This document shows, piece by piece, positions 15,690 through 63,510 of a stretch of 64,000 nt of DNA. Below the pieces are notes generated by a model. It did not search any database and was not told the DNA's origin. It worked only from the letters and a program-made list of their open reading frames with translations. Each line of letters opens with the position of its first letter. Positions within the stretch are counted from its first letter, which is position 1. This DNA is from Sipunculus nudus (Eukaryota > Annelida > Sipuncula > Golfingiida > Sipunculidae), in contig CM049308.1 of the NCBI GenBank assembly GCA_026874595.1, positions 95,032,624 to 95,096,623 on the forward strand. Reading direction: 5' to 3'. Both the position numbers and the translations under genes were made by a program.

Positions 15690-15860
15690 ACTCCCGATGA
15701 CTTGACATATTTCAGTTTATAAGAGAAAAAGGAACAGCTGTTAGACTCACCACGACTTGAGGTATTTCAGTTTACAAGACAAAAGAAACAGCTGTTAAGA
15801 CTCACCATGACTCGAGGAAGTTCAGTTAACAAGACAAAAGAAACAGCTGTTAAGACTCAC
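15690..15860 (-). repeat. 55-bp donor-anchored triplication after E9
   Basis: From the E9 donor on the minus strand, GTGAGTCTTAACAGCTGTTT begins a 55-bp unit that ends CGAGTCATG. A second 55-bp unit ends CAAGTCGTG, and a third, diverged one ends CAAGTCATC. The exon ends CAAGTCATG, so the last nine exon bases are part of the duplicated unit. Two extra GTGAGT donors therefore follow the real one. It is the smallest array in the gene and looks like an early stage of the process seen elsewhere. Confidence 0.88.
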
Positions 15861-15983
15861 CATGACTTGTTGTCTGGAAGCCCAGCAGGGTCCACCAGCC
15901 TGCTGATCTCTCTCAGCACCTGGACCACTCCCTTTCCAGTTGGAGAAGTTCAACCAAGACACAGATCCAGTGTCACCAAAGCC
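15861..15983 (-). CDS. E9, 41-codon coding exon
   Basis: The acceptor TTTCACCTTTGCAG ends at 15984 and the donor is GTCATG|GTGAGT at 15861/15860. The exon has 123 nt, and only the phase-0 frame demanded by E8 is open. It gives GFGDTGSVSWLNFSNWKGSG followed by a Gly/Gln/Ala-rich end. A second frame contains a more ordinary-looking stretch (VLREISRLVDPAGLP), but it has a TGA and would need a weak purine-rich acceptor, so I chose phase 0. Directly after the donor is a short tandem duplication of the junction. Confidence 0.65.
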
Positions 15984-16127
15984 CTGCAAAGGTGAAACAT
16001 TGACAGAAGATGTTAACCTCTTATGTTTGTGAATATCCATCTATAGAGAGACAATGTTCATGGGACAGAGAGAGTACAAACAAAACAGTCATGTAGTGAT
16101 GATTCTACAGTTAATGTTATTTTGTAA
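15984..16127. other. Intron 8, short unique part
   Basis: Unique sequence between the E9 acceptor and a family 1 element. Nothing further is visible. Confidence 0.6.
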
Positions 16128-17895
16128 CAAGTGACCCATGGGTCATGATGCTCAGCCGACTGACACGTTGACAATATGTCCTTGCACAGGCAACAAATTA
16201 AGATAATGTAGGTGGTATCATTGTTGATGCATCTTAGCTTAAGTTCTAGAATCCATAATAAGCACAACAAATTTGATGGCAATCCAACCAGCCTTTCCTG
16301 GGGAATCTGGCAATTTGTGGGTATTTTGCATTACATACCCCAAAACTCTGAGAATATAGGTCACAGTCACAGAATTTTAGGTTTCTGGGGTGAACTTTGG
16401 AGGAACTCTCAGGATGTCAAGTTAGAAGTTTCTGGGCCAAATGGTTATGATTTGTGCCCTACTTTGGTATCAAATTTTTCAATTATTCTGAGGGGTGCTT
16501 ATAAGCCCCATAGCTCAGAAAATATGGGTAACAGAGACCTACTTTTATGTTTCCAAGGAGACTTTTCATGGACCTCCCTGGATTTAAAGTTAGAAGATTC
16601 CAGGTCAAATGGTCATGATTTGTGCCCTGCTTTGGTATAAAACTTTTAATTATGCCGGGAGGTGTTTATAAGCCCCATAGCTCAGAGAATATGGGTAACA
16701 GAGACCTTAATTCTAGTTTCCAAGGAGATTTTTCATGGGCTTTCCTGAATGTCCAAATAAAAGATTCCAGGTCACATGGTTATGATTTGTGCCTTGTTAA
16801 CAGACAACCACATTTTTTTAAAGGTCTCAAAAATAAAGATAAAAATGTGTAAAAATTGGAAAAAGTCCAGGTGGCACCACTTTCTGCAGGAACTGATGAA
16901 ACACTCCATGATGCATATGCATGCAAAAAATCATGGTGATCAATGCATTAGTTAATCAGATACTTGAGCTTCTGTATCAAATTTTCATTATTCTGGGGGT
17001 TACTTCGAAGCCCCATAGCTTGAAGAACATGGGTAACAGAGACCTGATTCAAAGTTTTAAAGGAGACTTTTCATGGCCCTTTCTGGATGAGAAGTTAGAA
17101 GATTCCAGGTCCAGCGGTTACAATTTGTGCCCTGTTAACGGATGACTGCATCTTTAAAGGTCTCAGAAATAGAGAAATAAATTGTAAAAAATAGAAAAAA
17201 ATGCAGATGACACCACCAGTCTGCAGAAACTGATGAAACACTCCATGATCAATATCCATGCAAAAATTATGGTGATCAATGCATTAGTTGTTCAGATACT
17301 TAAACTTTTGTATCAAATTTTTCAATATTCTGGGGGGTACTTTGGAGCCCCATAGCTTGAAGAATATGGGTAACAGAGACCTGATTCCAGGTTTCAAAGG
17401 AGACTTTTCATGGTCCTCTCTGGATGTAAAGTAAAAACAATCCAGGTCCAGTGGTTACGATTTGTGCCCTGTTAACAGATGACTGCATCTTTTAAGGTAT
17501 CAAAAATAGAGAAAAAAAAAATTTTAAAATACAGGTGGCACCACCAGTCTGCAGAAACTGATGGAACACTCCATGATCAATATCCATGCAAAAAATTATG
17601 GTGATCAATGCATTAGTTGTTCAGATACTTGAGCTTTTGTATCAAATTTTTCATTATTCTGGGGGGTACTTTGGAGCCCCACAGCTTGAAGAATATGGGT
17701 AACAGAGACCTTACTCCAGGTTTCCAAGGAGACTTTTCATGGTCCTTTCTGGATGTAGAGTTAGAACATTCCAGGTCCAGCAGTTACGATTTGTGCCCTG
17801 TTTACGGACAGACAGCCAGACTGCCGGATGGCTGGACGGATGACGAACAAAGAGTGATCGCTATAGCTCGGATGACTTACAGTCAGCTGAGCTAA
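16128..17895 (+). mobile_element. Family 1 element with internal repeats of about 335 bp (intron 8)
   Basis: The left end is CAAGTGACCCATGGGTCATG then ATGCTCAGCCGAC. The right end is the GACGGATGACGAACAAAGAG region, the hairpin TAGCTCGGATGACTTACAGT, and CAGCTGAGCTAA. Four or more internal units of about 330 bp each contain CAGGTGGCACCACCAGTCTG, ACTCCATGATCAATATCCATG, ATGGGTAACAGAGACCT and TTTGTGCCCTGTTAAC. It is complete at both ends. No coding function is seen. Confidence 0.75.
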
Positions 17896-18299: not shown

Positions 18300-19002
18300 C
18301 CTGAGCATTGTTACATACCTGTGGTCTGTGAGTACCCTAAGTTTTATTACATACCTGTGGTCTGTGAGTACCCTAAGTTTTATAACATACCTGTGGTCTG
18401 TGAGTACCCTAAGTTTTATTACATACCTGTGGTCTGTGAGTACCCTAAGTTTTATTACATACCTGTGGTCTGTGAGTACCCTAAGTTTTATTACATACCT
18501 GTGGTCTGTGAGTACCCTAAGTTTTATTACATACCTGTGGTCTGTGAGTACCCTAAATTTTATTACATACCTGTGGTCTGTGAGTAGCCTAAGTTTTATT
18601 ACATACCTGTGGTCTGTGAGTACCCTAAGTTTCATTACATACCTGTGGTCTGTGAGTACCCTAAGTTTTATTACATACCTGTGGTCTGTGAGTACCCTAA
18701 GTTTTATTACATACCTGTGGTCTGTGAGTACCCTAAGTTTTATTACATACCTGTGGACTGTGAGTACCCTAAGTTTTATTACATACCTGTGGTCTGTGAG
18801 TAGCCTAAGTTTTATTACATACCTGCGGTCTGTGAGTACCCGAAGTTTTATTACATACCTGCGGTCTGTGAGTACCCTAAGTTTTATTACATACCTGTGG
18901 TCTGTGAGTACCCTAAGTTTTATTACATACCTGTGGTCTGTGAGTACCCTAAGTTTTATTACATACCTGTGGTCTGTTAGTACCCTAAGTTTTATTACAT
19001 AC
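18300..19002 (-). repeat. 36-bp donor-anchored array after E8 (20 copies)
   Basis: On the minus strand the unit is GTATGTAATAAAACTTAGGG plus TACTCACAGACCACAG, 36 bp. The array begins at the E8 donor. Twenty successive junctions read CGCAG|GTATGT or CACAG|GTATGT without one loss of the donor GT. The last copy, at about 18,310, then decays. The exon end GGACCGCAG resembles the unit end AGACCACAG, so the duplicated segment included the exon edge. A shift to the next donor reads VCNKT and then TAG. The 295-residue plus-strand and 282-residue minus-strand open frames here are products of the period. Confidence 0.95.
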
Positions 19003-21697
19003 CTGCGGTCCAGCTGTTTTTTTGCCTCTGGATATCCCATCAGATTCTGTGACATCTGGCTCGTCTGCCCACTTGGATGCCCTCGCAGGCCACTTAGGGT
19101 TACACCCAAGCTCTGGTCGCCTCAACCTCTGGGCCCCAGATGGCGCTGTCGGTTTCACCTGACTGGTGCCTGCCAGTGATGGACATGTCATTGTCATGGA
19201 CCCCTGGGTCCATGGATGTGTGTTTGTCTCTGTCTGATAATTAGTCCATCCAGTTCCAGGTGGAAAAGAAGAGAGTCCAGATAGCATTGCATTGTGGGTA
19301 GACCCTACTGATTGTGCTTGGTTAAAGGAATGATCATTTTGTTGTGCCTTTGTTAAAGGATTTTCTAAATGGCTGCTGGACTTTGGTAATTGGAACATTT
19401 TTGGGTCAACATGACTGGCGTGTTGAGGTTTAATGCCAGCTGTGGCCTCATTTTGAGAAAGTTTGACATGAGGGCCATTAGCAGGGAGACCATTTTGTCC
19501 ATTGTTGCTCTGTGTGCCTGGACCCGCAGCAGCCATGTTACGTCTATCTCGCAGGGACTTTGGACCGTACTTCTTCCTGCGGTGCATGATCACGGGAGTG
19601 TCGTCGCTCTTGCCCTCCTGTGATGTCAGTGAGACTGGGTTACTGTTGTCAGCCACTGGTACACTGGACTGCCCCACCTGACTGGCATGTGTTAATAGCT
19701 GGCTGACATCTGTTGTAGTGTTGCCAGACTGTAACAGCTGCTGATCAGTGGTTGATGTTTTCAGTCCTGCAGGTTGATCAGGGGTCTGCTCTCTGGAGTT
19801 TTCTGTATTGTACGTGTTCTTGTGTGTACTGTAAGCTGTATGTTTGGTTCTGTAAGCCGTACTGTCTGTACCGTGAGCTGTGTCGTCATCTGTACCATAT
19901 GCTGACGGAAACACCACGGGGGAGCCTTTACCTGCTGTAGCACCAGTCTTTCCCTCCAATAATTTCTGTGATGCCAAGGTAATGCCTTGGAATGCTGATT
20001 TTTGTGTTGCCATGGTGATGCCTTGGGATGCTGACTTTCCAGTGGCTCCACCAGGTGGTAGATCAGTGATCTTCATCCCTGGTGTGAGCTGAGAATCATG
20101 GCAAGTGATATGGCGAGACTGGGTTTGGGGGTTAGTACTATGTACTCCTTGGCTCTGCTTTGGCTGGGTCATCTGCTGTAGTTGAGAAGACGGCACCCCT
20201 AGACCTGCTGCTGAGGGCATGAGGAGTGGTGGCATGAGGGCGGGGTTCAAACCCAGCTGTGTGTATGCACTTAAATCAGGAACCGCCCCAGTTAAACCGG
20301 CTGGGTTACCAATATCTGCTGAGATGGTCGCATCATTTCCTTGTTCCCCTGGTTGCTGCTGCTGGGGCACCATGGGAACCAGCATGAAACCCTGTGGTAT
20401 CCAGGTCATAGGAAGGAATCCCTGCTGCTGACAGTCAGCGCCCCATACCCCGCCCTGCTGGCCCAGCCAGTTCTGGTACTGTGCCCCAGCACCTGCTGAT
20501 GAAGCAGTCACCCGAGCCGCAGAGTCAGGCATCTCCTGAGCCACGGTGTCAAACAGCTTGGTGACCTTTGGGGATATGACTGTGGGGTTTACTACTGATG
20601 TTCTGCTGTTATTGACTGTTAGTGCACTGTTGAGTGTGACTGCTGAGGGAGTCTCGCTGGACGTTACAGATCCGGGAGTCTCTGACGAGGATATGACTGG
20701 ATCCCAACCAAACTGGATCTGGCTAGACTCGCTGCTTCCTGCTGAATCACGATTGCTGGGAGCTGGATTAGCTGAGGGAGGCATGAGTGAAGCAGCAAAC
20801 AGATCCTCAGAGTCAGTCCTTGATTTCTTGCCAGAAGGGAAGGCTGTTCCTGATCCACTGCCTGAGGAGGGTTTGAGGTTGGTACTGACTGACTGTGAGG
20901 GAGCCGTGCTGACTGGCTTGGGAATGGGACTGTTTTTAGCTACTTTAGTGGATTCCTTCCTCATCCTCCCTTGAGGGGATTCCATTCTTTCACTCCCAAT
21001 AGGTAAAGGCTGACTGACTTTGATATTCTTCAACTCATCAGAACACCTATAATCGTCCACGTTGGTGTCACTGTCGCTGTCAAGCGTCCTGAAGGACAGT
21101 GAGCTGCTAGAGGCCTCAGACTTTCCAGCTTCTGGTGTGTGTGACTGCTGCATCGGCTTCGACGTCTCAGACAAGTTTAACTCCTTTAGCAAGTCAGAGC
21201 CAAGTTCATTACTGTTGGAACTGCTGAACCTGTTTGTGGATCTCCATGGATCAGATCCGCCTTGTTTGTTCCACAGATTCGCAGGCACAGACGGTTGTAC
21301 AGAAGCCTCCACTGAGTCTGTGATTCGGTGTTCAATGATATTTTGCTGGGAATGACCACTCTTATTTTTCTCTAGTTGTTCAGAGCTGAGTGCTGATTGG
21401 TGGGATCCTGACAAAGCTGACAGTAAGGGGGCACCTGATGTTGCCGTGGATATATTACTATAACCTGGCTGCTCAGTTTTCAGCATTCCAGGTGCTCTGC
21501 TCGTTCTCATGGAGTCTGCCTTCACTTTTGTCACTGCAGCCCATGATGAATTTGCATATTCATCATTAATTGACCTATTAGCATATTCATCACTGACAGG
21601 CCTATTTGCAGTGCTTGTGACTGGTCCTCCGTAAGTCACCTGACCAGACGTTGTGTCTGGAGGGAATGTTTTCGTGTCAGGGAGGTACGCCGCCATC
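19003..21697 (-). CDS. E8, 898-codon low-complexity exon
   Basis: The acceptor TTCCTTCCTTTGACAG ends at 21698. The first G completes the Met codon split with E7, and 898 full codons follow to the donor GGACCGCAG|GTATGT at 19003/19002. The protein is mostly disordered by composition: Ser, Thr, Gln, Asn and Pro dominate. Visible features are a tandem DEYANRS-INDEYANSS near the start, a Ser-rich middle, a hydrophobic Trp/Gln/Pro/Met stretch around QGFLPMTWIPQGFMLVPMVP followed by QQQQ, an AYGT/AYRT/AYST-type Tyr-Thr repeat near residue 630, a basic HRRKKYGPKSLRDRRN near 725, and a final basic/Trp segment, NPKWPARASKWADEPDVTES. The internal ATG at 21,694 is not the start, because the frame runs on through E7. 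I recognise no catalytic domain. Confidence 0.9.
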
Positions 21698-22138: not shown

Positions 22139-22346
22139 ATGGCTCGAAGTTCTGATTCTCGCTCTGCCTCACGTTTACTCAGCTCCAGAGCTTGTCTCAG
22201 CATCTCTTCCTCCTCAGCCTCTGAAGCCGGTGCAAGCTGATCCAGGTTCTCCTGCTTCATCTGCATCCTCTGAGCCCTGACCTGCCACAAGTTCTCACTG
22301 GGCACCGGTGCTGGCTGGAAGGCTAGTTGTCCTGATGGATGGAGCC
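22139..22346 (-). CDS. E7, coding exon with a ubiquitin-interacting motif
   Basis: The acceptor is TTTTTAATCCTGCAG ending at 22347 and the donor is GCCAT|GTGAGA at 22139/22138. The 208 nt fit phase on both sides: E6 leaves one base and this exon supplies two, then two bases remain for E8. The translation begins LHPSGQLAFQPAPVPSENLW and runs through a charged helix (QVRAQRMQMKQENLDQLAP) into EAEEEEMLRQALELSKREAE. That last segment fits the ubiquitin-interacting motif: an acidic run, then L-x-x-A-L-x-x-S-x-x-E. By family knowledge such helices bind mono- or polyubiquitin weakly. Only one copy is seen. The 5' end of this exon is the seed of the adjacent acceptor-type array. Confidence 0.88.
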
Positions 22347-24598
22347 CTGCAGGATTAAAAATATAAACATCAGTAGACAGGTGCTTGCTGGAAGGCTGGC
22401 TGTCCTGAAGGATGGAGCCCTGCAGGATTAAAAACACTAATATCAGTAGACAGATGCTGGCTGGAAGGCTGGCTGTCCTGAAGGATTAAAAACACAAAAA
22501 TCAGTACACAGGTGCTGGCTGGAAGGCTGGCTGTCCTGAAGGATGGAGCCCTGCAGGATTAAAAACACTAACATAAGTAGACAGGTGCTGGCTGGAAGGC
22601 TGGCTGTCCTGAAGGATTAAAAACACTAACATCAGTAGAGAGTCACTGGCTGGTAGGCTGGCTGTCCTGAAGGATTAAAAACACTAACATCAGTAGAGAG
22701 TCACTGGCTGGAAGGCTGGCTGTCCTGAAGGATTAAAAACACTAACATCAGTAGACAGGCACTGGCTGGAAGGCTGGCTGTCCTGAAGGATTAAAAACAC
22801 TAACATCAGTACACAGGTGCCTCTGGAAGGCTGGCTGTCCTGAAGGATTAAAAACACTAATATCAGTAGAGATTCACTGGCTGGAAGGCTGGCTGTCCTG
22901 AAGGATTAAAAACACTAACATCAGTAGAGAGTCACTGGCTGGAAGGCTGGCTGTCCTGAAGGATTAAAAACACTAACATCAGTAGACAGGCACTGGCTGG
23001 AAGGCTGGCTGTCTTGAAGGATTAAAAACACTAACATCAGTAGACAGGTGCTGGCTGGAAGGCTGGCTGTCCTGAAGGATTAAAAACACTAATATCAGTA
23101 GAGAGTCACTGGCTGGAAGGCTGGCTGTCCTGAAGGATTAAAAACACTAACATCAGTAGAGAGTCACTGGCTGGAAGGCTGGCTGTCCTGAAGGATTAAA
23201 AACACTAACATCAGTAGACAGGCACTGGCTGGAAGGCTGGCTGTCTTGAAGGATTAAAAACACTAACATCAGTAGACAGGTGCTGGCTGGAAGGCTGGCT
23301 GTCCTGAAGGATTAAAAACACTAACATTAGTAGACAGCCACTGGCTGGAAGGCTGGCTGTCCTGAAGGATTAAAAACACTAATATCAGTAGACAGGCACT
23401 GGCTGGAAGGCTGGCTGTCCTGAAGGATTAAAAACACTATCATCAGTAGAGAGTCACTGGCTGGAAAGCTGGCTGTCCTGAAGGATTAAAAACACTAACA
23501 TCAGTAGAGAGTCACTGGCTGGAAGGCTGGCTGTCCTGAAGGATTAAAAAACACTAACATCAGTAGAGAGTCACTGGCTGGAAGGCTGGCTGTCCTGAAG
23601 GATTAAAAACACTAACATCAGTAGACAGGTGCTGGCTGGAAGGCTGGCTGTCCTGAAGGATTAAAAAAACTAACATCAGTAGACAGGCACTGGCTGGAAG
23701 GCTGGCTGTCCTGAAGGATTAAAAACACTAACATCAGTAGAGAGTCACTGGCTGGAATGCTGGCTGTCCTGAAGGATTAAAAACACTAACATCAGTACAC
23801 AGGTGCTGGCTGGAAGGCTGGCTGTCCTGAAGGATGGAGCCCTGCACAAATTAAAAACACTAACATCAGTAGACAGGTGCTGGCTGGAAGGCTGGCTGTC
23901 CTGAAGGATGCAACCCTGCACAAATTAAAAACACTAACATCAGTAGACAGGTGCTGGCTAGAAGGCTGGCTGTCCTGAAGGATGGAGCCCTGCACAAATT
24001 AAAAACACTAACATCAGTAGACAGGTGCTGGCTGGAAGGCTGGCTGTCCTGAAGGATTAAAAACACTAACATCAGTAGACAGGCACTGGCTGGAAGGCTG
24101 GCTGTCTTGAAGGATTAAAAACACTAACATCAGTAGACAGGTGCTGGCTAGAAGGCTGGCTGTCCTGAAGGATGGAGCCCTGCACAAATTAAAAACACTA
24201 ACATCAGTACACAGGTGCTGGCTGGAAGGCTGGCTGTCCTGAAGGATTAAAAACACTAACATCAGTAGAAAGGCACTGGCTGGAAGGCTGGCTGTCCTGA
24301 AGGATTAAAAACACTAACATCAGTAGACAGGTGCTGGCTACAAGGCTGGCTGTCCTGAAGGATTAAAAACACTAACATTAGTAGACAGGCACTGGCTGGA
24401 AGGCTGGCTGTCCTGAAGGATTAAAAACACTAATATCAGTAGACAGGCACTGGCTGGAAGGCTGGCTGTCCTGAAGGATTAAAAACACTAACATCAGTAG
24501 AGAGTCACTGGCTGGAAAGCTGGCTGTCCTGAAGGATTAAAAACACTAACATCAGTAGAGAGTCACTGGCTGGAAGGCTGGCTGTCCTGAAGGATTAA
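22347..24598 (-). repeat. Acceptor-anchored tandem array before E7 (58/73-bp units, about 37 copies)
   Basis: The E7 junction (TTTTTAATCCTGCAG|GGCTCC and the next 35 or so exon bases, through CCAGCCTTCCAGCCAGCACC) is itself the repeat unit. Long units of 73 bp keep the junction. Most units are 58 bp and lack 15 bp between ATCCTGCAG and ATCCTTCAG, but still read TTTTTAATCCTTCAG|GACAGC, a usable acceptor. The remaining sequence is the linker GTCTACTGATGTTAGTG. A unit-to-unit alternation of AGACAGGTGC, AGACAGGCAC and AGAGAGTCAC forms a higher-order pattern. Use of an upstream copy would shift frame and meet a stop. The array is split by two transposons. Confidence 0.93.
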
Positions 24599-27500: not shown

Positions 27501-27736
27501 GGTTTTTCCTTAATATCTCAAAGGAACGAAGTCCTATTGACCCAATTTTTGGCATGGTAGGAGATTATGGGGACATCTAACTGTATGCCAAAATTCAGAT
27601 TCGTAGGTCCAACGGTGTAGAAACGTGCCAGTCTTACGGACGGACATCCAGACGGACGGACGGACGGACGGACAGACAGACGGACAGACATTGGACCATG
27701 ACTATAGCTCAGATGACTTACAGTCAGCTGAGCTAA
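24599..27736 (+). mobile_element. Family 1 element (3.1 kb) inserted in the E7 acceptor array
   Basis: The left end is CAAGGGACCCATGGGTCACG; the right end is a GGACGGACGGACAGACAGAC microsatellite, the hairpin and GCTAA. The repeat array is interrupted at GGATTA and resumes in register at AAAACACTAACATC, so the limits are known almost to the base. The flanking A-run hides any target duplication. The body matches 36,328-39,460 over nearly its full length. It has a run of G at 26,207 (about 12) and the recurrent 69-codon reverse frame at 24,806-25,015. Confidence 0.85.
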
Positions 27737-28041
27737 AAACACTAACATCAGTAGACAGGCACTGGCTGGAAGGCTGGCTGTCCTGAAGGATTAAAAACAC
27801 TAACATCAGTAGACAGGTGCTGGCTGGAAGGCTTGCTGTCCTGAAGGATTAAAAACACTAACATCAGTAGAGAGTCACTGGCTGGAAGGCTGGCTGTCCT
27901 GAAGGATTAAAAACACTAACATCAGTAGACAGGCACTGGCTGGAAGGCTGGCTGTCCTGAAGGATTAAAAACACTAACATCAGTAGACAGGTGCTGGCTG
28001 GAAGGCTGGCTGTCCTGAAGGATGGAGCCCTGCAGGATTAA
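27737..28041 (-). repeat. Continuation of the E7 acceptor array between two transposons
   Basis: About five units identical in type to those before 24,598 resume right after the GCTAA end of the element at 27,736, and stop at the start of the next element. The phase of the repeat is continuous across both insertions (GGATTA on one side, AAAACACTAACATC on the other). This shows that the elements landed inside an existing array. Confidence 0.9.
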
Positions 28042-30528: not shown

Positions 30529-30800
30529 AAACACTAACATTAGTAGCGCTGGTTGGTAGACTGGCTGTTCTGAAGGATGGAGCCCTGAATGATTAAAAAC
30601 ACCAACATTAGTATGCAGGCTCTGGCTGGAAGACTAGCTGTTCTGAAGGATGGAGCCCTGCATGATTAAAAACACCAACATTAGTATACAGGCAATGGCT
30701 GTATGACTGGCTGTTCTTAAGGATGGAGCCCTGAAGGATTAAAAAACAATAACAGCAGTACATGGGCACTGGCTGGAAGACTGGCTGTTCTGAAAGATGG
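30529..30800 (-). repeat. Distal, diverged part of the E7 acceptor array
   Basis: Four long-type units continue after the second element: GGATGGAGCCCTGAATGATT, then CATGATT and AAGGATT variants. They keep the 73-bp form but have lost some acceptor AGs (CAG changed to CAT or TTCAG). Their greater divergence suggests that they are the oldest part and that homogenisation has been limited to units near E7. Confidence 0.85.
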
Positions 30801-48914: not shown

Positions 48915-49010
48915 TAGAGTCTGAGGTGTTGGGACAGTCCAGTCTTCTTCTGTGACAGTGCTGCTGGGTTTGTTGGGAGAAATCACTGGTGCATACCCTG
49001 GGATGTTACT
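48915..49010 (-). CDS. E3, coding exon before the octapeptide array
   Basis: The acceptor TATATTGTAG ends at 49011. The frame is fixed by E2 ending in phase 0 and gives SNIPGYAPVISPNKPSSTV followed by TEEDWTVPTPQTL, 32 codons. The reading frame then continues without a stop into the 24-bp array as repeated VNTASPAP-like octapeptides to about 47,922. The exon therefore has no single obvious end. The first possible donor is CTA|GTAAAC at 48915/48914, exactly where the array starts, and stronger GTAAGT donors recur inside the array. All of these are in phase 0, as E4 requires. Confidence 0.65.
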
Positions 49011-50299: not shown

Positions 50300-53200
50300 C
50301 AGACGAGGCTCACCTGTCCCTCTAACACCACATCAGAAAAAGATCACCTGTCCCTCTAACTCACCAGATCAGACAAGGCTCACCTGTCCCTCTAACACAC
50401 CAAATCAGACAAGGCTCACCTGTCCCTCTAACACACCAGATCAGAAGAGGCACATCTGTCCCTCTAACATACCAGATCAGATGAGGCTCACCTGCCCTCT
50501 AAAACACCAGATAAGACAAAGATCACCTGTCCTTCTAACACACCAGATCAGACAAGGCTCACCTGTCCCTCTAACACATCAGATCAGACAAAGATCACCT
50601 GTCCCTCTAACACACCAGATCAGACAAGGCTCACTTGTCCCTCAAACACACTAGATCAGATGAGGCTCACCTGTCCTTCACACACAAGATCAGACAAGGC
50701 TCACCTGTCCCTCTAACACACCAAATCAGACAAGGATCACAAGTGATTAGACGAGGCTCACCTGTCCCTCAAACACACCAGGTCATCAAGGCTTACTTGT
50801 CCCTCAGACACACCAGATCAGAGGAGGCTCACCTGTCCCTCAAACACACCAAACCAGATGAGGCTCACCTGTCCCTCGAACACATCAGATCAGACAAGGC
50901 TCACTTGTCCCTCTAACACCAAATCAGACAAGGTTCACCTGTCCCTCTAACATACCAGATCAGAAGAGGCACTTAGTCCCTCTAACATACCAGATCAGAT
51001 GAGGCTCACCTGCCCTCTAAAACACCAGATAAGACAAAGATCACCTGTCCCTCTAACACACCAGATCAGACAAGGCTCACCTGTCCCTCTAAAACACCAG
51101 ATCAGACAAGGCTCACCTGTCCCTCTAACACACCAAATCAGACAAGGCTCACCTGTCCCTCTGACACACCACATCAGAAAAAGATCACCTGTCCCTCTAA
51201 CTCACCAGATCAGACAAGGCTCACCTGTCCCTCTAAAACACCATATCAGACAAGGCTAACCTGTCCCACTAACACACCAAATCAGACAAGGCTCACAAGT
51301 GATTAGACAAGGCTCACCTGTCCCTCAAACACACCAGATCATCAAGGCTTACTTGTCCCTCAAACACACCAGATCAGAGGAGGCTCACCTGTCGCTCTAA
51401 CACACCACATCAGACAAGGCTCACCTGTCCCTCTAACACACCAGATCAGACAAGGTTCACCTGTCCCACTAACACACCAAATCAGACAAGGATCACAAGT
51501 GATTAGACAAGGCTCACCTGTCCCTCAAACACACCAGGTCATCAAGGCTTACTTGTCCCTCAAATACACCAGATCAGAGGAGGCTCACCTGTCCCTCAAA
51601 CACACCAGACCAGATGAGGCTCACCTGTCCCTCTAACACATCAGATCAGACAAGGCTCACCTGTCCCTCTAACACCAAATCAGACAAAGCTCACCTGTCC
51701 CTCTAACACACCAGATCAGAAGAGGCACTTATTCCCTCTAACATACCAGATCAGATGAGGCTCACCTGCCCTCTAAAACACCAGATAAGACAAAGATCAC
51801 CTGTCCCTCTAACACACCAGATCAGACAAGGCTCACCTGTCCCTCTAAAACACCAGATCAGACAAGGCTCACATGTCCCTCTAACACACCAAATCAGACA
51901 AGGCTTACCTGTCCCTCTAACATACCAGATCAGAAGAGGCACATCTGTCCTCTAACATACCAGATAAGATGAGGCTCACCTGTCCCTCTAACACACCAGA
52001 TCAGACGAGGCTCACCTGTCCCTCTAACTCACCACATCAGAAAAAGATCACCTGTCCCTCTAACTCACCAGATCAGACAAGGCTCACCTGTCCCTCTAAC
52101 ACACCAAATCAGACAAGGCTCACCTGTCCCTCTAACACACCAGATCAGAAGAGGCACATCTGTCCCTCTAACATACCAGATCAGATGAGGCTCACCTGCC
52201 CTCTAAAACACCAGATAAGACAAAGATCACCTGTCCTTCTAACACACCAGATCAGACAAGGCTCACCTGTCCCTCTAACACACCAGATCAGATGAGGCTC
52301 ACCTGTCCCCCAAACACCAGATCAGATGAGGCTCACCTGTCCCTCTTACACACAAGATGAGAAGAGGTACATCTGTCCCTCTAACATACCAGATCAGACA
52401 AGGCTCACCTGTCCCTCTAACACACCAGATCAGACGAGGCTCACCTGTCCCTCTAACACACCACATCAGAAAAAGATCACCTGTCCCTCTAACTCACAAG
52501 ATCAGACAAGGCTCACCTGTCCCTTTAACACACCAGATCAGACAAGGCTAACCTGTCCCACTAACACACCAAATCAGACAAGGCTCACAAGTGATTAGAC
52601 AAGGCTCACCTGTCCCTCAAACACACCAGATCATCAAGGCTTACTTGTCCCTCAAACACACCAGATCAGAGGAGGCTCACCTGTCCCTCTAACACACCAC
52701 ATCAGACAAGGCTCACCTGTCCCTCTAACACACCAAATCAGACAAGGCTCACCTGTCCCTCTAACACACCAATTCATGAAGAGGCACATCTGTCCCTCTA
52801 ACATACCAGATCAGAGGAGGCTCACCTGTCCCTCTAACACACCAGATCAGAGGAGGCTCACCTGTCCCTCAAACACACCAGACCAGATGAGGCTCACCTG
52901 TCCCTCTAACACATCAGATCAGACAAGGCTCACCTGTCCCTCTAACACCAAATCAGACAAGGCTCACCTGTCCCTCTAACACATCAGATCAGAAGAGGCA
53001 CTTAGTCCCTCTAACATACCAGATCAGATGAGGCTCACCTGCCCTCTAAAACACCAGATAAGACAAAGATCACCTGTCCCTCTAACACACCAGATCAGAC
53101 AAGGCTCACCTGTCCCTCTAAAACACCAGATCAGACAAGGCTCACCTGTCCCTCTAACACACCAAATCAGACAAGGCTCACCTGTCCCTCTAACACACCA

Positions 53201-56200
53201 GATCAGAAGAGGCACATCTGTCCCTCTAACATACCATATCAGATGAGGCTCACCTGCCCTCTAAAACACCAGATAAGACAAAGATCACCTGTCTCTCTAA
53301 CACACCAGATCAGACAAGGCTCACCTGTCCCTCTAAAACACCAGATCAGACAAGGCTCACCTGTCCCTCTAACACACCAAATCAGACAAGGCTCACCTGT
53401 CCCTCTAACACACCAGATCAGAAGAGGCACATCTGTCCCTCTAACATACCAGATCAGATGAGGCTCACCTACCCTCTAAAACATCAGATAAGACAAAGAT
53501 CACCTGTCCCTCTAACACACCAGATCAGACAAGGCTCAATTGTCCCTCAAACACACCAGATCAGATGAGGCTCACCTGTCCTTCACACACAAGATCATAC
53601 AAGGCTCATTGTCCCTCAAACACACCAGGTCAGATGAGGCTCGCCTCTCCCTCAAACACACCCGATCAGACAAGGCTCACCTGTCCCTCTAACACACCAA
53701 ATCAGACAAGGCTCACCTGTCCCTCTAACACACCAGATCAGACATGGCTTACCTGTCCCTCTAACATACCAGATCAGACAAGGTTAACCTGTCCCTCTAA
53801 CTCACCAGATCAGACAAGGCTCACCTGTCCCTCTAACACACCAGATAAGACAAGGCTCACCTGTCCCTCTAACATACCAGATCAGACAAGGCTCACCTGT
53901 CCCTCTAACACACCAGATTAGATGAGGCTCACCTGTCCCTCTAACACACCAGGTCAGACAAGGCTCACTTGTCCCTCAAACACACCAGATCAGATGATGA
54001 TCACCTGTCCCTCAAACATACCAAATCAGACAAGGCTCACCTGTCCCTCTCACACACCAGATCAGATGATGGCTCACCTGTCCCTCTAACATACCAAATC
54101 AGACAAGGCTCATCTGTCCCTCTAACATACCAGATCAGACAAGGCTCACCTGTCCCTCTAACATACCAGATCAGACAAGGCTCACCTGTCCCTCTAACAC
54201 ACCAGATCAGACAAGGCCCACCTGTCCCCTAACATACCAGATCAGACAAGGCTCACCTGTCCCTCTAACTCACAAGATCAGACAAGGCTCACCTGTCCCT
54301 CTAACTCACCAGATCAGACAAGTCTAACCTGTCCCTCTAATACACCAGATCAGACAAGGCTCACCTGTCCCTCTAACATTCCAGATCAGACAAGGCTCAC
54401 CTGTCCCTCTAACATACCAGATCAGACAAGGCTCACCTGTCCCTCTTACACACCAGATTAGATGAGGCTCACCTGTCCCTCTAACATACCAGATCAGACA
54501 AGGCTCACCTGTCCCTCTTACACACCAGATTAGATGAGGCTCGCCTTTTTCCTCTATCATACCAGATTAGACAAGGCTCACCTGTCCCTCTTACACACCA
54601 GATTAGATGAGGCTCACCTGTCCCTCTAACACACCAGATCAGACAAGGCTCACCTGTCCCTCTAACACACCAGATTAGAGGAGGCTCACCTGTCCCTCTA
54701 ACATACCAGATCAGACAAGGCTCACCTGTCCCTCTTACACACCAGATTAGATGAGGCTCACCTGTCCCTCTAACACACCAAATCAGACAAGGCTCACCTG
54801 TCCCTCTAACACACCAGATCAGAAGAGGCACATCTGTCCCTCTAACATACCAGATCAGATGAGGCTCACCTGCCCTCTAAAACACCAGATAAGACAAAGA
54901 TCACCTGTCCCTCTAACACACCAGATCAGACAAGGCTCACCTGTCCCTCTAAAACACCAGATCAGACAAGGCTCACCTGTCCCTCTAACACACCAAATCA
55001 GACAAGGCTCACCTGTCCCTCTAACACACCAGATCAGAAGAGGCACATCTGTCCCTCTAACATACCAGATCAGATGAGGCTCACCTACCCTCTAAAACAT
55101 CAGATAAGACAAAGATCACCTGTCCCTCTAACACACCAGATCAGACAAGGCTCAATTGTCCCTCAAACACACCAGATCAGATGAGGCTCACCTGTCCTTC
55201 ACACACAAGATCATAAAGGCTCATTGTCCCTCAAACACACCAGGTCAGATGAGGCTCGCCTCTCCCTCAAACACACCCGATCAGACAAGGCTCACCTGTC
55301 CCTCTAACACACCAGATCAGACAAGGCTCACCTGTCCCTCTAACACACCAGATCAGACATGGCTTACCTGTCCCTCTAACATACCAGATCAGACAAGGTT
55401 AACCTGTCCCTCTAACTCACCAGATCAGACAAGGCTCACCTGTCCCTCTAACACACCAGATAAGACAAGGCTCACCTGTCCCTCTAACATACCAGATCAG
55501 ACAAGGCTCACCTGTCCCTCTAACACACCAGATTAGATGAGGCTCACCTGTCCCTCTAACACACCAGGTCAGACAAGGCTCACTTGTCCCTCAAACACAC
55601 CAGATCAGATGATGATCACCTGTCCCTCAAACATACCAAATCAGACAAGGCTCACCTGTCCCTCTCACACACCAGATCAGATGATGGCTCACCTGTCCCT
55701 CTAACATACCAAATCAGACAAGGCTCATCTGTCCCTCTAACATACCAGATCAGACAAGGCTCACCTGTCCCTCTAACATACCAGATCAGACAAGGCTCAC
55801 CTGTCCCTCTAACACACCAGATCAGACAAGGCCCACCTGTCCCCTAACATACCAGATCAGACAAGGCTCACCTGTCCCTCTAACTCACAAGATCAGACAA
55901 GGCTCACCTGTCCCTCTAACTCACCAGATCAGACAAGTCTAACCTGTCCCTCTAATACACCAGATCAGACAAGGCTCACCTGTCCCTCTAACATTCCAGA
56001 TCAGACAAGGCTCACCTGTCCCTCTAACATACCAGATCAGACAAGGCTCACCTGTCCCTCTTACACACCAGATTAGATGAGGCTCACCTGTCCCTCTAAC
56101 ATACCAGATCAGACAAGGCTCACCTGTCCCTCTTACACACCAGATTAGATGAGGCTCGCCTTTCCCTCTATCATACCAGATTAGACAAGGCTCACCTGTC

Positions 56201-56700
56201 CCTCTTACACACCAGATTAGATGAGGCTCACCTGTCCCTCTAACACACCAGATCAGACAAGGCTCACATGTCCCTCTAACACACCAGATTAGAGGAGGTT
56301 CACCTGTCCCTCTAACATACCAGATCAGACAAGGCTCACCTGTCCCTCTTACACACCAGATTAGATGAGGCTCACCTGTCCCTCTAACATACCAGATCAG
56401 ACAAGGCTCACCTGTCCCTCTAACATACCAGATCAGACAAGGCTCACCTGCCCCTCTTACACACCAGATCAGATGAGGCTCGCCTGTCCCTCTAACATAC
56501 CAGATCAGACAAGGCTCACCTGTCCCTCTTACACACCAGATTAGATGAGGCTCTCCTGTCCCTCTATCATACCAGATCAGACAAGGCTCACCTGTCCCTC
56601 TTACACACCAGATTAGATGAGGCTCACCTGTCCCTCTAACACACCAGATCAGACAAGGCTCACCTGTCCCTCTAACATACCAGATCAGACAAGGCTCACC
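50300..56700 (-). repeat. Higher-order repeat copy 1 within the 36-bp array
   Basis: Irregular landmarks recur about 6.39-6.42 kb downstream. They include units with CCACATCAGAAAAAGATCAC, 33-bp units, the dinucleotide-poor AAGTGATTAGACAAGG variants and the GATGATGATCACC variant. Examples are 50,635 with 57,057 (offset 6,422), 51,755 with 58,143 (6,388), 53,565 with 59,952 (6,387) and 55,156 with 61,542 (6,386). The offset drops by about one 36-bp unit near 50,950, so one copy has lost a unit. Inside this block a shorter duplication of about 1.6 kb is also visible (53,969 with 55,584). Boundaries are approximate. Confidence 0.8.
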
Positions 56701-59700
56701 TGTCCCTCTAACACACCAGATCAGACAAGGCTCACCTGTCCCTCTAACACCACATCAGAAAAAGATCACCTGTCCCTCTAACTCACCAGATCAGACAAGG
56801 CTCACCTGTCCCTCTAACACACCAAATCAGACAAGGCTCACCTGTCCCTCTAACACACCAGATCAGAAGAGGCACATCTGTCCCTCTAACATACCAGATC
56901 AGATGAGGCTCACCTGCCCTCTAAAACACCAGATAAGACAAAGATCACCTGTCCTTCTAACACACCAGATCAGACAAGGCTCACCTGTCCCTCTAACACA
57001 TCAGATCAGACAAAGATCACCTGTCCCTCTAACACACCAGATCAGACAAGGCTCACTTGTCCCTCAAACACACTAGATCAGATGAGGCTCACCTGTCCTT
57101 CACACACAAGATCAGACAAGGCTCACCTGTCCCTCTAACACACCAAATCAGACAAGGATCACAAGTGATTAGACGAGGCTCACCTGTCCCTCAAACACAC
57201 CAGGTCATCAAGGCTTACTTGTCCCTCAAACACACCAGATCAGAGGAGGCTCACCTGTCCCTCAAACACACCAAACCAGATGAGGCTCACCTGTCCCTCG
57301 AACACATCAGATCAGACAAGGTTCACCTGTCCCTCTAACATACCAGATCAGAAGAGGCACTTAGTCCCTCTAACATACCAGATCAGATGAGGCTCACCTG
57401 CCCTCTAAAACACCAGATAAGACAAAGATCACCTGTCCCTCTAACACACCAGATCAGACAAGGCTCACCTGTCCCTCTAAAACACCAGATCAGACAAGGC
57501 TCACCTGTCCCTCTAACACACCAAATCAGACAAGGCTCACCTGTCCCTCTGACACACCACATCAGAAAAAGATCACCTGTCCCTCTAACTCACCAGATCA
57601 GACAAGGCTCACCTGTCCCTCTAAAACACAATATCAGACAAGGCTAACCTGTCCCACTAACACACCAAATCAGACAAGGCTCACAAGTGATTAGACAAGG
57701 CTCACCTGTCCCTCAAACACACCAGATCATCAAGGCTTACTTGTCCCTCAAACACACCAGATCAGAGGAGGCTCACCTGTCCCTCTAACACACCACATCA
57801 GACAAGGCTCACCTGTCCCTCTAACACACCAGATCAGACAAGGTTCACCTGTCCCACTAACACACCAAATCAGACAAGGATCACAAGTGATTAGACAAGG
57901 CTCACCTGTCCCTCAAACACACCAGGTCATCAAGGCTTACTTGTCCCTCAAATACACCAGATCAGAGGAGGCTCACCTGTCCCTCAAACACACCAGACCA
58001 GATGAGGCTCACCTGTCCCTCTAACACATCAGATCAGACAAGGCTCACCTGTCCCTCTAACACCAAATCAGACAAAGCTCACCTGTCCCTCTAACACACC
58101 AGATCAGAAGAGGCACTTATTCCCTCTAACATACCAGATCAGATGAGGCTCACCTGCCCTCTAAAACACCAGATAAGACAAAGATCACCTGTCCCTCTAA
58201 CACACCAGATCAGACAAGGCTCACCTGTCCCTCTAAAACACGAGATCAGACAAGGCTCACATGTCCCTCTAACACACCAAATCAGACAAGGCTTACCTGT
58301 CCCTCTAACATACCAGATCAGAAGAGGCACATCTGTCCTCTAACATACCAGATAAGATGAGGCTCACCTGTCCCTCTAACACACCAGATCAGATGAGGCT
58401 CACCTGTCCCTCTAACTCACCACATCAGAAAAAGATCACCTGTCCCTCTAACTCACCAGATCAGACAAGGCTCACCTGTCCCTCTAACACACCAAATCAG
58501 ACAAGGCTCACCTGTCCCTCTAACACACCAGATCAGAAGAGGCACATCTGTCCCTCTAACATACCAGATCAGATGAGGCTCACCTGCCCTCTAAAACACC
58601 AGATAAGACAAAGATCACCTGTCCTTCTAACACAACAGATCAGACAAGGCTCACCTGTCCCTCTAACACACCAGATCAGATGAGGCTCACCTGTCCCCCA
58701 AACACCAGATCAGATGAGGCTCACCTGTCCCTCTTACACACAAGATGAGAAGAGGTACATCTGTCCCTCTAACATACCAGATCAGACAAGGCTCACCTGT
58801 CCCTCTAACACACCAGATCAGACGAGGCTCACCTGTCCCTCTAACACACCACATCAGAAAAAGATCACCTGTCCCTCTAACTCACCAGATCAGACAAGGC
58901 TCACCTGTCCCTTTAACACACCAGATCAGACAAGGCTAACCTGTCCCACTAACACACCAAATCAGACAAGGCTCACAAGTGATTAGACAAGGCTCACCTG
59001 TCCCTCAAACACACCAGATCATCAAGGCTTACTTGTCCCTCAAACACACCAGATCAGAGGAGGCTCACCTGTCCCTCTAACACACCACATCAGACAAGGC
59101 TCACCTGTCCCTCTAACACACCAAATCAGACAAGGCTCACCTGTCCCTCTAACACACCAATTCATGAAGAGGCACATCTGTCCCTCTAACATACCAGATC
59201 AGAGGAGGCTCACCTGTCCCTCTAACACACCAGATCAGAGGAGGCTCACCTGTCCCTCAAACACACCAGACCAGATGAGGCTCACCTGTCCCTCTAACAC
59301 ATCAGATCAGACAAGGCTCACCTGTCCCTCTAACACCAAATCAGACAAGGCTCACCTGTCCCTCTAACACATCAGATCAGAAGAGGCACTTAGTCCCTCT
59401 AACATACCAGATCAGATGAGGCTCACCTGCCCTCTAAAACACCAGATAAGACAAAGATCACCTGTCCCTCTAACACACCAGATCAGACAAGGCTCACCTG
59501 TCCCTCTAAAACACCAGATCAGACAAGGCTCACCTGTCCCTCTAACCAACAAATCAGACAAGGCTCACCTGTCCCTCTAACACACCAGATCAGAAGAGGC
59601 ACATCTGTCCCTCTAACATACCATATCAGATGAGGCTCACCTGCCCTCTAAAACACCAGATAAGACAAAGATCACCTGTCTCTCTAACACACCAGATCAG

Positions 59701-62700
59701 ACAAGGCTCACCTGTCCCTCTAAAACACCAGATCAGACAAGGCTCACCTGTCCCTCTAACACACCAAATCAGACAAGGCTCACCTGTCCCTCTAACACAC
59801 CAGATCAGAAGAGGCACATCTGTCCCTCTAACATACCAGATCAGATGAGGCTCACCTACCCTCTAAAACATCAGATAAGACAAAGATCACCTGTCCCTCT
59901 AACACACCAGATCAGACAAGGCTCAATTGTCCCTCAAACACACCAGATCAGATGAGGCTCACCTGTCCTTCACACACAAGATCATACAAGGCTCATTGTC
60001 CCTCAAACACACCAGGTCAGATGAGGCTCGCCTCTCCCTCAAACACACCCGATCAGACAAGGCTCACCTGTCCCTCTAACACACCAGATCAGACAAGGCT
60101 CACCTGTCCCTCTAACACACCAGATCAGACATGGCTTACCTGTCCCTCTAACATACCAGATCAGACAAGGTTAACCTGTCCCTCTAACTCACCAGATCAG
60201 ACAAGGCTCACCTGTCCCTCTAACACACCAGATAAGACAAGGCTCACCTGTCCCTCTAACATACCAGATCAGACAAGGCTCACCTGTCCCTCTAACACAC
60301 CAGATTAGATGAGGCTCACCTGTCCCTCTAACACACCAGGTCAGACAAGGCTCACTTGTCCCTCAAACACACCAGATCAGATGATGATCACCTGTCCCTC
60401 AAACATACCAAATCAGACAAGGCTCACCTGTCCCTCTCACACACCAGATCAGATGATGGCTCACCTGTCCCTCTAACATACCAAATCAGACAAGGCTCAT
60501 CTGTCCCTCTAACATACCAGATCAGACAAGGCTCACCTGTCCCTCTAACATACCAGATCAGACAAGGCTCACCTGTCCCTCTAACACACCAGATCAGACA
60601 AGGCCCACCTGTCCCCTAACATACCAGATCAGACAAGGCTCACCTGTCCCTCTAACTCACAAGATCAGACAAGGCTCACCTGTCCCTCTAACTCACCAGA
60701 TCAGACAAGTCTAACCTGTCCCTCTAATACACCAGATCAGACAAGGCTCACCTGTCCCTCTAACATTCCAGATCAGACAAGGCTCACCTGTCCCTCTAAC
60801 ATACCAGATCAGACAAGGCTCACCTGTCCCTCTTACACACCAGATTAGATGAGGCTCACCTGTCCCTCTAACATACCAGATCAGACAAGGCTCACCTGTC
60901 CCTCTTACACACCAGATTAAAAGAGGCTCGCCTTTCCCTCTATCATACCAGATTAGACAAGGCTCACCTGTCCCTCTTACACACCAGATTAGATGAGGCT
61001 CACCTGTCCCTCTAACACACCAGATCAGACAAGGCTCACCTGTCCCTCTAACACACCAGATTAGAGGAGGCTCACCTGTCCCTCTAACATACCAGATCAG
61101 ACAAGGCTCACCTGTCCCTCTTACACACCAGATTAGATGAGGCTCACCTGTCCCTCTAACACACCAAATCAGACAAGGCTCACCTGTCCCTCTAACACAC
61201 CAGATCAGAAGAGGCACATCTGTCCCTCTAACATACCAGATCAGATGAGGCTCACCTGCCCTCTAAAACACCAGATAAGACAAAGATCACCTGTCCCTCT
61301 AACACACCAGATCAGACAAGGCTCACCTGTCCCTCTAAAACACCAGATCAGACAAGGCTCACCTGTCCCTCTAACACACCAAATCAGACAAGGCTCACCT
61401 GTCCCTCTAACACACCAGATCAGAAGAGGCACATCTGTCCCTCTAACATACCAGATCAGATGAGGCTCACCTACCCTCTAAAACATCAGATAAGACAAAG
61501 ATCACCTGTCCCTCTAACACACCAGATCAGACAAGGCTCAATTGTCCCTCAAACACACCAGATCAGATGAGGCTCACCTGTCCTTCACACACAAGATCAT
61601 AAAGGCTCATTGTCCCTCAAACACACCAGGTCAGATGAGGCTCGCCTCTCCCTCAAACACACCCGATCAGACAAGGCTCACCTGTCCCTCTAACACACCA
61701 GATCAGACAAGGCTCACCTGTCCCTCTAACACACCAGATCAGACATGGCTTACCTGTCCCTCTAACATACCAGATCAGACAAGGTTAACCTGTCCCTCTA
61801 ACTCACCAGATCAGACAAGGCTCACCTGTCCCTCTAACACACCAGATAAGACAAGGCTCACCTGTCCCTCTAACATACCAGATCAGACAAGGCTCACCTG
61901 TCCCTCTAACACACCAGATTAGATGAGGCTCACCTGTCCCTCTAACACACCAGGTCAGACAAGGCTCACTTGTCCCTCAAACACACCAGATCAGATGATG
62001 ATCACCTGTCACTCAAACATACCAAATCAGACAAGGCTCACCTGTCCCTCTCACACACCAGATCAGATGATGGCTCACCTGTCCCTCTAACATACCAAAT
62101 CAGACAAGGCTCATCTGTCCCTCTAACATACCAGATCAGACAAGGCTCACCTGTCCCTCTAACATACCAGATCAGACAAGGCTCACCTGTCCCTCTAACA
62201 CACCAGATCAGACAAGGCCCACCTGTCCCCTAACATACCAGATCAGACAAGGCTCACCTGTCCCTCTAACTCACAAGATCAGACAAGGCTCACCTGTCCC
62301 TCTAACTCACCAGATCAGACAAGTCTAACCTGTCCCTCTAATACACCAGATCAGACAAGGCTCACCTGTCCCTCTAACATTCCAGATCAGACAAGGCTCA
62401 CCTGTCCCTCTAACATACCAGATCAGACAAGGCTCACCTGTCCCTCTTACACACCAGATTAGATGAGGCTCACCTGTCCCTCTAACATACCAGATCAGAC
62501 AAGGCTCACCTGTCCCGCTTACACACCAGATTAGATGAGGCTCGCCTTTCCCTCTATCATACCAGATTAGACAAGGCTCACCTGTCCCTCTTACACACCA
62601 GATTAGATGAGGCTCACCTGTCCCTCTAACACACCAGATCAGACAAGGCTCACCTGTCCCTCTAACACACCAGATTAGAGGAGGCTCACCTGTCCCTCTA

Positions 62701-63100
62701 ACATACCAGATCAGACAAGGCTCACCTGTCCCTCTTACACACCAGATTAGATGAGGCTCACCTGTCCCTCTAACATACCAGATCAGACAAGGCTCACCTA
62801 TCCCTCTAACATACCAGATCAGACAAGGCTCACCTGCCCCTCTTACACACCAGATCAGATGAGGCTCGCCTGTCCCTCTAACATACCAGATCAGACAAGG
62901 CTCACCTGTCCCTCTTACACACCAGATTAGATGAGGCTCTCCTGTCCCTCTATCATACCAGATCAGACAAGGCTCACCTGTCCCTCTTACACACCAGATT
63001 AGATGAGGCTCACCTGTCCCTCTAACACACCAGATCAGACAAGGCTCACCTGTCCCTCTAACATACCAGATCAGACAAGGCTCACCTGTCCCTCTAACAC
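56700..63100 (-). repeat. Higher-order repeat copy 2 within the 36-bp array
   Basis: This is the second copy of the 6.39-kb block. It matches copy 1 unit by unit, including rare variants, with only scattered single-base differences, so the duplication looks recent. It carries the same internal 1.6-kb duplication (60,356 with 61,970, offset 1,614). The last 300 bp, next to E2, lie outside the block and contain the most regular units. Confidence 0.8.
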
Positions 63101-63409
63101 ACCAGATCAGACAAGGCTCACCTGTCCCTCTAACACACCAGATCAGACAAGGCTCACCTGTCCCTCTAACACACCAGATCAGACAAGGCCCACCTGTCCC
63201 TCTTACACAACAGATCAGACAAGGCCCACCTGTCCCTCTAACATACCAGATCAGACAAGGCTCACCTTTCCCTCTAACACACCAGATCAGACAAGGCTCA
63301 CCTGTCCCTCTAACACACCAGATCAGACAAGGCCCACCTGTCCCTCTTACACAACAGATCAGACAAGGCCCACCTGTCCCTCTTACACGACAGATCAGAT
63401 GAGGCTCAC

Positions 63410-63510
63410 CTGCTGTGCCTTTTCTTTACGACGTGCCTTTTTACTCTTCTTCTTGTGTGTGGATTTGGTGATGAATATGTCTGTAGTCGGAGCTCTGTCT
63501 TGCTGAGGCT
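63410..63510 (-). CDS. E2, Lys-rich coding exon whose donor seeds the 14-kb array
   Basis: The acceptor is TTTCCCACCAG at 63511-63521 and the donor is CAG|GTGAGCC at 63410/63409. The exon has 101 nt: two bases completing a codon, then 33 codons ending in phase 0. The translation is a Pro/Gln start (PQQDRAPTTD), a short hydrophobic stretch (IFITKS) and a strongly basic tail (HKKKSKKARRKEKAQQ) that could act as a nuclear localisation or RNA-binding patch; that role is inference. An alternative acceptor at TTCAG|TTTCCC (63522) would also be open, but it forces an in-frame TAA just upstream in E1. The first base after this exon is the first base of the 36-bp repeat array. Confidence 0.75.

Follow-up and report, generated by a model that had tools for sequence, protein, structure and literature searches.

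In the human gene IFI6 (6-16), a small minisatellite supplies repeated splice donors, a single small case. In amphioxus, minisatellite-like repeats termed mirages have been described that span the exon-intron boundary, on its 5' or 3' side, in Adh3, the globin genes BflGb6 and BflGb9, TnC and PGBD5, and in many of whose units an AG or GT splice signal recurs (PMC3087553, PMC3902484); the BflGb6 mirage is reported with 6 and 3 copies in two haplotypes (PMC3087553, PMC3902484), and reverse-transcription PCR indicated regular splicing despite the mirages (PMC3087553). Chicken genes display exon stuttering, an intronic tandem expansion of the neighbouring exon's edge and its donor or acceptor, at several introns per gene and from a source at most 1 base from the exon border in more than 90% of cases; 190 of the 236 introns described lie on dot chromosomes, where simple repeats cover a median of 7-93% of introns, copy number runs from 1 to 44 (median 4), and the authors link the process to GC-rich (guanine- and cytosine-rich) sequence and mention gerbil genes as unshown data (PMC12954441). 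Intron 18 of human ABCA7 holds a variable number tandem repeat (VNTR) with a 25-bp unit that opens with the two bases of the exon 18 donor, recorded at 12 to about 427 copies and up to 10.7 kb, and an isoform retaining one unit makes up 2 ± 1% (PMC5954066), while human segmental duplications contain internal tandem repeats at exon-intron boundaries with minisatellite units of about 30 bp (PMC2812944). Here we analyse a stretch of 64,000 nucleotides from the annelid Sipunculus nudus, hereafter the window (GenBank assembly GCA_026874595.1, contig CM049308.1, positions 95,032,624 to 95,096,623; contig C3 of a 1.43-Gb genome in 153 contigs), in which a gene on the minus strand carries tandem arrays at several of its splice junctions. 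We consider it likely, at a probability of about 0.8, that these arrays began as tandem duplications spanning a junction, were tolerated, and grew as minisatellites, and that they are of one kind with the amphioxus mirages.

The preliminary description of this window, made from its letters alone, had placed arrays at the donors of exons E2, E3, E6, E8 and E9 and at the acceptor of E7, the donor arrays starting at the first intron base. Tandem Repeats Finder (TRF) recovered an array at every one of these junctions on the minus strand, and the donor motifs that had been quoted are present (Table 1), but the edges required correction and E3, discussed below, is ambiguous. At the donors, TRF places the edge 2 (E2), 4 (E3), 2 (E6), 7 (E8) and 8 nt (E9) inside the exon, so that the units usually span the junction and include the exon edge; at E7 the edge varies with the TRF row, falling exactly on the acceptor at 22346 or, in the 73-bp row, 39 nt into the exon at 22307. 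The donor GT persists in most copies, with G in 90% and T in 96% at E2, 100% and 100% at E8, and 99% and 99% in a 48-bp array upstream of the window. Exons were placed by open frame, splice motif and phase, and phases are consistent at the five junction pairs that can be checked (E2/E3, E5/E6, E6/E7, E7/E8 and E8/E9), an agreement that is partly built in because open frames guided the drawing of exon limits.

In two introns the arrays occupy nearly everything between the exons. The E2-E3 intron measures 14,399 bp and is 99% array by TRF coverage (36-bp unit), and when 26 kb upstream of the window was added, with exons there named X1, X2, X3 and so on, the X1-X2 intron (extended coordinates 65870-80677; stretches L001:1573-2644, L001:2675-6377, L002 and L003:1-306) measured 14,808 bp and was 100% array. 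Arrays thus stand at both ends of introns, on the donor and on the acceptor side. Introns X3-X4, X4-X5, E5-E6 and E7-E8 hold none of the 13 arrays counted below, and the intron next to X1-X2 contains a 46-bp array of 4.6 copies that starts at about intron base +37. Within the 36-bp array at E2 (49186-63412), several 500-bp stretches show 99.4-100% identity to segments about 6,386-6,388 bp away, a pattern that looks like one recent large duplication step or an assembly error. The E6-E7 intron holds three pieces of one 58/73-bp family (30549-30800, 27734-28023 and 22307-24598), perhaps a single acceptor-seeded array later split by insertions.

The preliminary description had proposed that these unrelated units reflect independent recurrence, and comparison of the consensus units agrees with it: across 36 pairings the best local score was 20 (about 10 matched bases; shuffle p 0.005, uncorrected for the 36 tests), and on our reading the units share the donor motif and otherwise look unrelated. 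The position of the arrays points the same way. Counting arrays with a period of 20-100 bp and at least 2.5 copies, with overlapping rows merged, over 66.4 kb of the gene (window and upstream), the appropriate edge lies within 10 nt of a junction in 8 of 13, two of these eight upstream of the window, and within 5 nt in 6 of 13, while 40,000 random placements gave a mean of 0.10 and a maximum of 3 arrays within 10 nt. The count of eight used the E7 edge at 22346, a favourable choice; with the edge at 22307 it falls to 7 of 13 (maximum 3 in 20,000 placements), or to 6 if E3 is also left out, and a limit of 40 nt then takes in 9 of 13 arrays against a simulated maximum of 4. That array edges meet junctions beyond chance therefore holds in this gene with either edge, but because the window was picked by the preliminary description for its arrays these simulations are not genome-wide probabilities.

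Table 1. Predicted exons and TRF arrays of the minus-strand gene (window coordinates), followed by arrays upstream of the window and in the myosin sample. A slash marks the predicted exon-intron boundary.
Feature	Position	Strand	Size or copies	Remarks
Exon E2	63410..63521	-	112 nt	donor CACAGCAG/GTGAGCC; open reading frame, phase 0 into E3
36-bp array	49186..63412	-	394.6 copies	seeded on E2 donor
Exon E3	48915..49010	-	96 nt	limits of the preliminary description; phase 0; 3' end uncertain
24-bp array	47640..48919	-	53.1 copies	E3; in frame (VNTxSPAP): donor array or coding VNTR
Exon E4	from 46507	-		donor not resolved
58-bp array	45494..46214	-	12.4 copies	carries CAGGTATGT; no recognisable exon adjoining
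Exon E5	32678..32889	-	212 nt	donor AACAACAG/GTAATA, without array
Exon E6	31149..31318	-	170 nt	donor GGGAAATG/GTAGGT
42-bp array, degenerate	31028..31151	-	2.8 copies	seeded on E6 donor
73-bp array	30549..30800	-		consensus of the E7 acceptor array family
58-bp array	27734..28023	-	5 copies	consensus of the E7 acceptor array family
58/73-bp array	22307..24598	-	about 37 copies	covers E7 acceptor CTGCAG/GGCTCC
Exon E7	22139..22346	-	208 nt	location of weak match to a ubiquitin-interacting motif
Exon E8	19003..21697	-	2,695 nt	open reading frame of 910 aa; donor GGACCGCAG/GTATGT
36-bp array	18311..19010	-	19.4 copies	98% mean identity to unit; seeded on E8 donor, about 7 nt of exon included
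Exon E9	15861..15983	-	123 nt	donor AAGTCATG/GTGAGT
55-bp array	15683..15869	-	3.4 copies	seeded on E9 donor, about 8 nt of exon included
48-bp donor array	X1-X2 intron	-	291 copies	starts at donor TACTCA/GTAAGT
51-bp acceptor array	X1-X2 intron	-	15 copies	ends 3 nt short of exon; meets 48-bp array
L110 donor array			21 bp x 14	exon neighbouring a myosin target
L111 donor array			36 bp x 20	myosin target
L119 donor array			30 bp x 21.6	myosin target
L121 donor array			83 bp x 1.9	myosin target; degenerate
L094 acceptor array			82 bp x 5.8	exon neighbouring a myosin target; edge 26 nt inside exon

Less biased evidence comes from exons elsewhere in the genome that were chosen regardless of arrays. 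The myosin sample comprised 40 of the first 41 of 75 listed myosin-head exon matches (the omitted match lies inside neighbouring stretches) and the kinesin sample 20 of the first 21 of 126 listed matches (one overlapping match was skipped), with flanks of 700 bp, a few of them trimmed, and 95.6 kb in total; since the acceptor flank of L118 and most of the donor flank of L112 are absent, slightly fewer than 120 junctions were sampled. Arrays spanned 3 of about 120 target junctions, all among the roughly 80 of the myosin sample (L111, L119 and L121), as well as two junctions of neighbouring exons. Among arrays of at least three copies and a period of at least 15, with AT-only arrays excluded, the edge fell within 20 nt of a junction in three of eight (L110, L111 and L119; 5.4% expected for each, P 0.007) and within 30 nt in four of eight (L094 added; 8.0% expected for each, P 0.002), values that serve only as a guide because the thresholds were set after looking. 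Together with the simulations in the gene, these counts disfavour the alternative that ordinary minisatellites are scattered at random and those near junctions catch the eye; arrays away from junctions do exist, among them 5 of the 13 in the gene and others around the sampled exons, and we regard this alternative as improbable. A further candidate, L141, was ruled out as a junction array on reading its acceptor. One myosin intron (L110:1-452, in gene sense) contains a 39-bp array whose end lies about 250 bp short of the family match; it may be the donor array of the exon before.

A scan of the genome for donor-motif arrays, defined as three copies of CAGGTAAGT spaced 20-50 bp, returned 329 matches, and the reversed motif 132; about 100 of each were listed, and loci were counted among these. 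The matches listed resolve into 18 loci for CAGGTAAGT, reaching as far as C7:75 Mb, and 9 for the reversed motif, 4 of the latter in C1-C7, so that within C1-C7 and among the matches listed arrays stand at 18 against 4 loci (p 0.009, with 46% of the genome taken as searched), while the single motifs number 15,332 and 12,946, a 1.18-fold difference. To each locus we assigned a coding score, with codon use drawn from five exons of the window, amino-acid frequencies entered by hand, and a cut-off at the 95% background level. Scores exceeded the cut-off for 11 of the 18 donor arrays, 1 of 7 scored controls, 1 of 5 arrays of AAGGTAAGT and 17 of 40 isolated copies of CAGGTAAGT, the last being the first isolated ones listed (C1, 0-6.6 Mb) rather than a random draw. 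Each of the 11 well-scoring loci has an open frame resembling an exon that runs up to the first donor, with the TRF edge 3-37 nt within that frame. The AAGGTAAGT arrays, for which five of six listed loci were taken, are less clear than those of CAGGTAAGT; the sixth, which exceeds 4.8 kb and has a 45-bp unit (C4:24479403 to beyond 24484228), was excluded, its edge lying beyond the listed matches. Controls L029 and L032 and the any-spacing locus L083, which have no TRF array whose consensus holds the motif, were left unscored; the other two arrays of any spacing (L084 and L085) scored below the cut-off, and three CAGGTGAGC arrays (L022, L023 and L033) were read as sequence without a coding score. 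L023 (C1:61596-63296) and L033 (C1:2170200-2171900), both 24-bp CAGGTGAGG arrays 2.1 Mb apart, have nearly identical flanks and hence represent a segmental duplication or an assembly duplicate.

Junction arrays recur in other genes, on several contigs of 80-111 Mb. When ten exon translations were compared with Pfam, four gave plausible matches (L016, L008, L019 and L007) and six none. The array unit at L016 carries the end of a TXNDC5/PDI exon (E 1.5e-36) and that at L008 the end of an exon of an ABCC-family transporter (ABCC2, E 2.6e-8, aligned to the last residue), for which the ABC_membrane match in Pfam is below the cut-off; the unit at L019 carries a less firm permease-like exon end (E 7e-4, below the cut-off) and L007 shows a weak PH match. 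The L015 translation returned no match in the PDB.

The preliminary description had further suggested that splice junctions in this genome are hot spots for tandem duplication, an idea that our results do not establish. Junctions of this lineage might be true mutational hot spots, with co-transcriptional R-loops as one conceivable cause and microhomology of the donor to decoy donors within the intron as another, which would amount to a mutation bias and not only to tolerance; if so, a few per cent of introns across the genome would be growing outward, each from the splice sites at its ends, and some introns of many kb would be composed solely of copies of both junctions. The junction excess among the exon-first arrays and the excess of CAGGTAAGT arrays over reversed ones, set against motifs that differ little in number, lend the idea some weight. 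Against it, arrayed motifs lie beside coding-like sequence about as often as isolated ones (p 0.26), the array thresholds were post hoc and the samples small, and the kinesin sample contributes no clear case in 40 junctions. The score also does not show real donors to be likelier arrayed, because so many isolated motifs stand beside coding-like sequence, a count that equally lends something to random scatter; many isolated copies of CAGGTAAGT are probably real donors too. Nor is there a fixed breakpoint, given that the TRF edge may fall anywhere from 3 to 37 nt inside the exon. We therefore treat a hot spot, in the lineage and across the genome alike, as a tentative proposal somewhat short of even odds.

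Whether the copied splice sites have a function bears on how they could persist. Within the arrays, the repeated donors have diverged about as much as other unit positions, with a per-position identity of about 93% in the E2 donor core against 91% overall and of about 95% against 95% in the upstream 48-bp array, and for this reason the copies look neutral. At E2, E8 and E9, on our reading of the sequence, splicing at a donor farther downstream would introduce an in-frame stop before the first unit is over; a coding mRNA should therefore come from the exon-proximal donor. Both observations are as expected of copies that the splicing machinery passes over and selection does not maintain, and the suggestion that duplicated sites are tolerated while the outermost, exon-proximal one is used fits RNA work on ABCA7 and the amphioxus globins as reported (PMC5954066, PMC3087553). 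One could suppose instead that extra donors or acceptors are selected, as decoys that bind U1, as boosters of exon definition, or as regulators of alternative splicing; most donor-side units do repeat a donor-like motif, and the length of the ABCA7 array is reported to alter exon 19 skipping (PMC5954066). We find this unlikely, as donor positions vary about as much as the remainder of the unit in the arrays of 395 and 291 copies and show no excess conservation.

The array at E3 can be read in two ways, and we treat it as ambiguous because the 24-bp unit keeps the reading frame, which stays open in about 30 of 53 copies. The unit corresponds to eight codons, frame 0 is open over those copies (VNTxSPAP) while the other two frames stop early, and the donor proposed in the preliminary description, CTA/GTAAAC, is a weak one; all of this would suit a coding tandem repeat instead of an intronic donor array. 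A 22-bp unit part-way along shifts the frame, however, and later copies hold stops, so that a donor within the array would be needed in any case. The array that had been reported is there, and we judge the two readings, donor array and coding repeat, evenly balanced.

Several points weigh against our preferred interpretation of the arrays as tolerated duplications of splice junctions. Every exon end in the gene is predicted from open frame, phase and motif, and the exon end at L119 is likewise predicted from an open frame that runs 63 nt beyond the family match, while L121, one of the three spanned myosin targets, has only 1.9 copies; in addition, the E3 array may be coding. In the kinesin sample, none of 40 target junctions was clearly spanned: the main row of one array ends 93 nt before the acceptor, with a weak tail row ending 24 nt before it, and a two-copy repeat starts at intron base +7. 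Seven of the 18 donor-motif arrays (L004, L010, L011, L012, L014, L018 and L021) fall below the coding cut-off at their edge. Lastly, since longer ABCA7 arrays are reported to raise skipping of the next exon (exon 19; PMC5954066), the copies need not be fully neutral.

Under the interpretation of tolerated junction duplication, an array would start from a short tandem duplication, of about 20-85 bp, across an exon-intron boundary, copying the last or first bases of the exon together with the splice site. The copy adjacent to the exon would go on serving the mRNA, a likely reason being that exon definition pairs the sites on either side of an exon, and the extra copies would become intron and be nearly neutral. 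Slippage or unequal exchange could then expand and homogenise the array, at times until it fills nearly the whole intron, at about 14 kb. In this scheme the arrays, where they lie, their presence in other genes and the ordinary divergence of the copied donors are observed, and the choice of donor and the mode of expansion are inferred.

The identity of the gene is less clear than its arrays. Translation of E3-E8 gave a single Pfam match, to the ubiquitin-interacting motif in E7, which is weak (E 0.017, below the cut-off); the E8 and E9 translations returned no Pfam match, and that of E8 none in the PDB. A DnaJ-domain exon (PF00226, E 2.8e-7) lies on the minus strand at L003:9740-9928, 9.4 kb upstream of X1 and on the same strand, and may be the start of the array-bearing gene, although joining the two was attempted without success. 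Within and downstream of the gene, four similar open reading frames with the sequence RDIVSYSHKFIN (window 13432-13647, 24809-25024, 33218-33433 and 36544-36738) are apparently copies of one dispersed element. The window also holds dispersed tandem blocks of 275-337 bp (1266-2137, 8492-9355, 16629-17802 and 40224-43207), several with the palindrome GGTGGCGCCACC, and a 180-bp satellite (9748-10923) that resembles them and recurs at L003:6033-7114. For the molluscan haemocyanin domain PF14830 the genome returned no match, a result without weight, since control genomes returned none either.

These findings bear on how introns lengthen and on why splice sites tolerate many adjacent exact copies of themselves, and they caution gene predictors that one array can present hundreds of donor-like sites. 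Should arrays stand at a few per cent of the junctions of an ordinary animal genome, the phenomenon would not be peculiar to lancelets, nor would it be bound to GC-rich dot chromosomes, and if the hot-spot idea is true, it would provide a standing route to growth in intron length in an ordinary genome that is not GC-rich. Searches of the open-licence PMC literature, each listing at most 25 papers, showed no genome-wide report outside lancelets and birds.

The phenomenon itself is known, and the preliminary description, which cited IFI6 as the precedent, understated how far: amphioxus mirages, chicken exon stuttering and the ABCA7 VNTR belong beside it. As in the mirages, the Sipunculus units span the boundary (by 2-8 nt at donors in the gene, 3-37 nt in the 11 well-scoring loci, and at the acceptors of E7 and L094) and keep the donor GT in most copies. 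Mirages, as those reports describe them, occur in single genes with few copies, whereas Sipunculus arrays reach about 395 copies, make up 99-100% of some introns, and are found at several junctions of one gene and in other genes on several contigs of a 1.43-Gb genome. As in chicken stuttering, the introns hold copies of the adjacent exon's edge, but the association with GC-rich dot chromosomes does not extend to Sipunculus, where the arrays were met on contigs of 80-111 Mb and the GC content of the window is 40% (0.29-0.50 in 2-kb steps). The human segmental-duplication repeats differ in being short (about 4 units), found in recent paralogs, and tied by their authors to the formation of new introns (PMC2812944). 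The ABCA7 VNTR resembles the Sipunculus arrays in having a unit that begins at the exon donor and hundreds of copies, and since it reaches about 427 copies at one site (PMC5954066), the claim that some 395 copies represent a different scale does not stand; it is reported, however, as a polymorphic and disease-linked repeat at one junction of one gene. What Sipunculus adds is two introns of about 14 kb with an array content of 99-100%, situated on ordinary large chromosomes, and arrays at both intron ends and in several genes on contigs of 80-111 Mb, the gene of the window lying in sequence of 40% GC.

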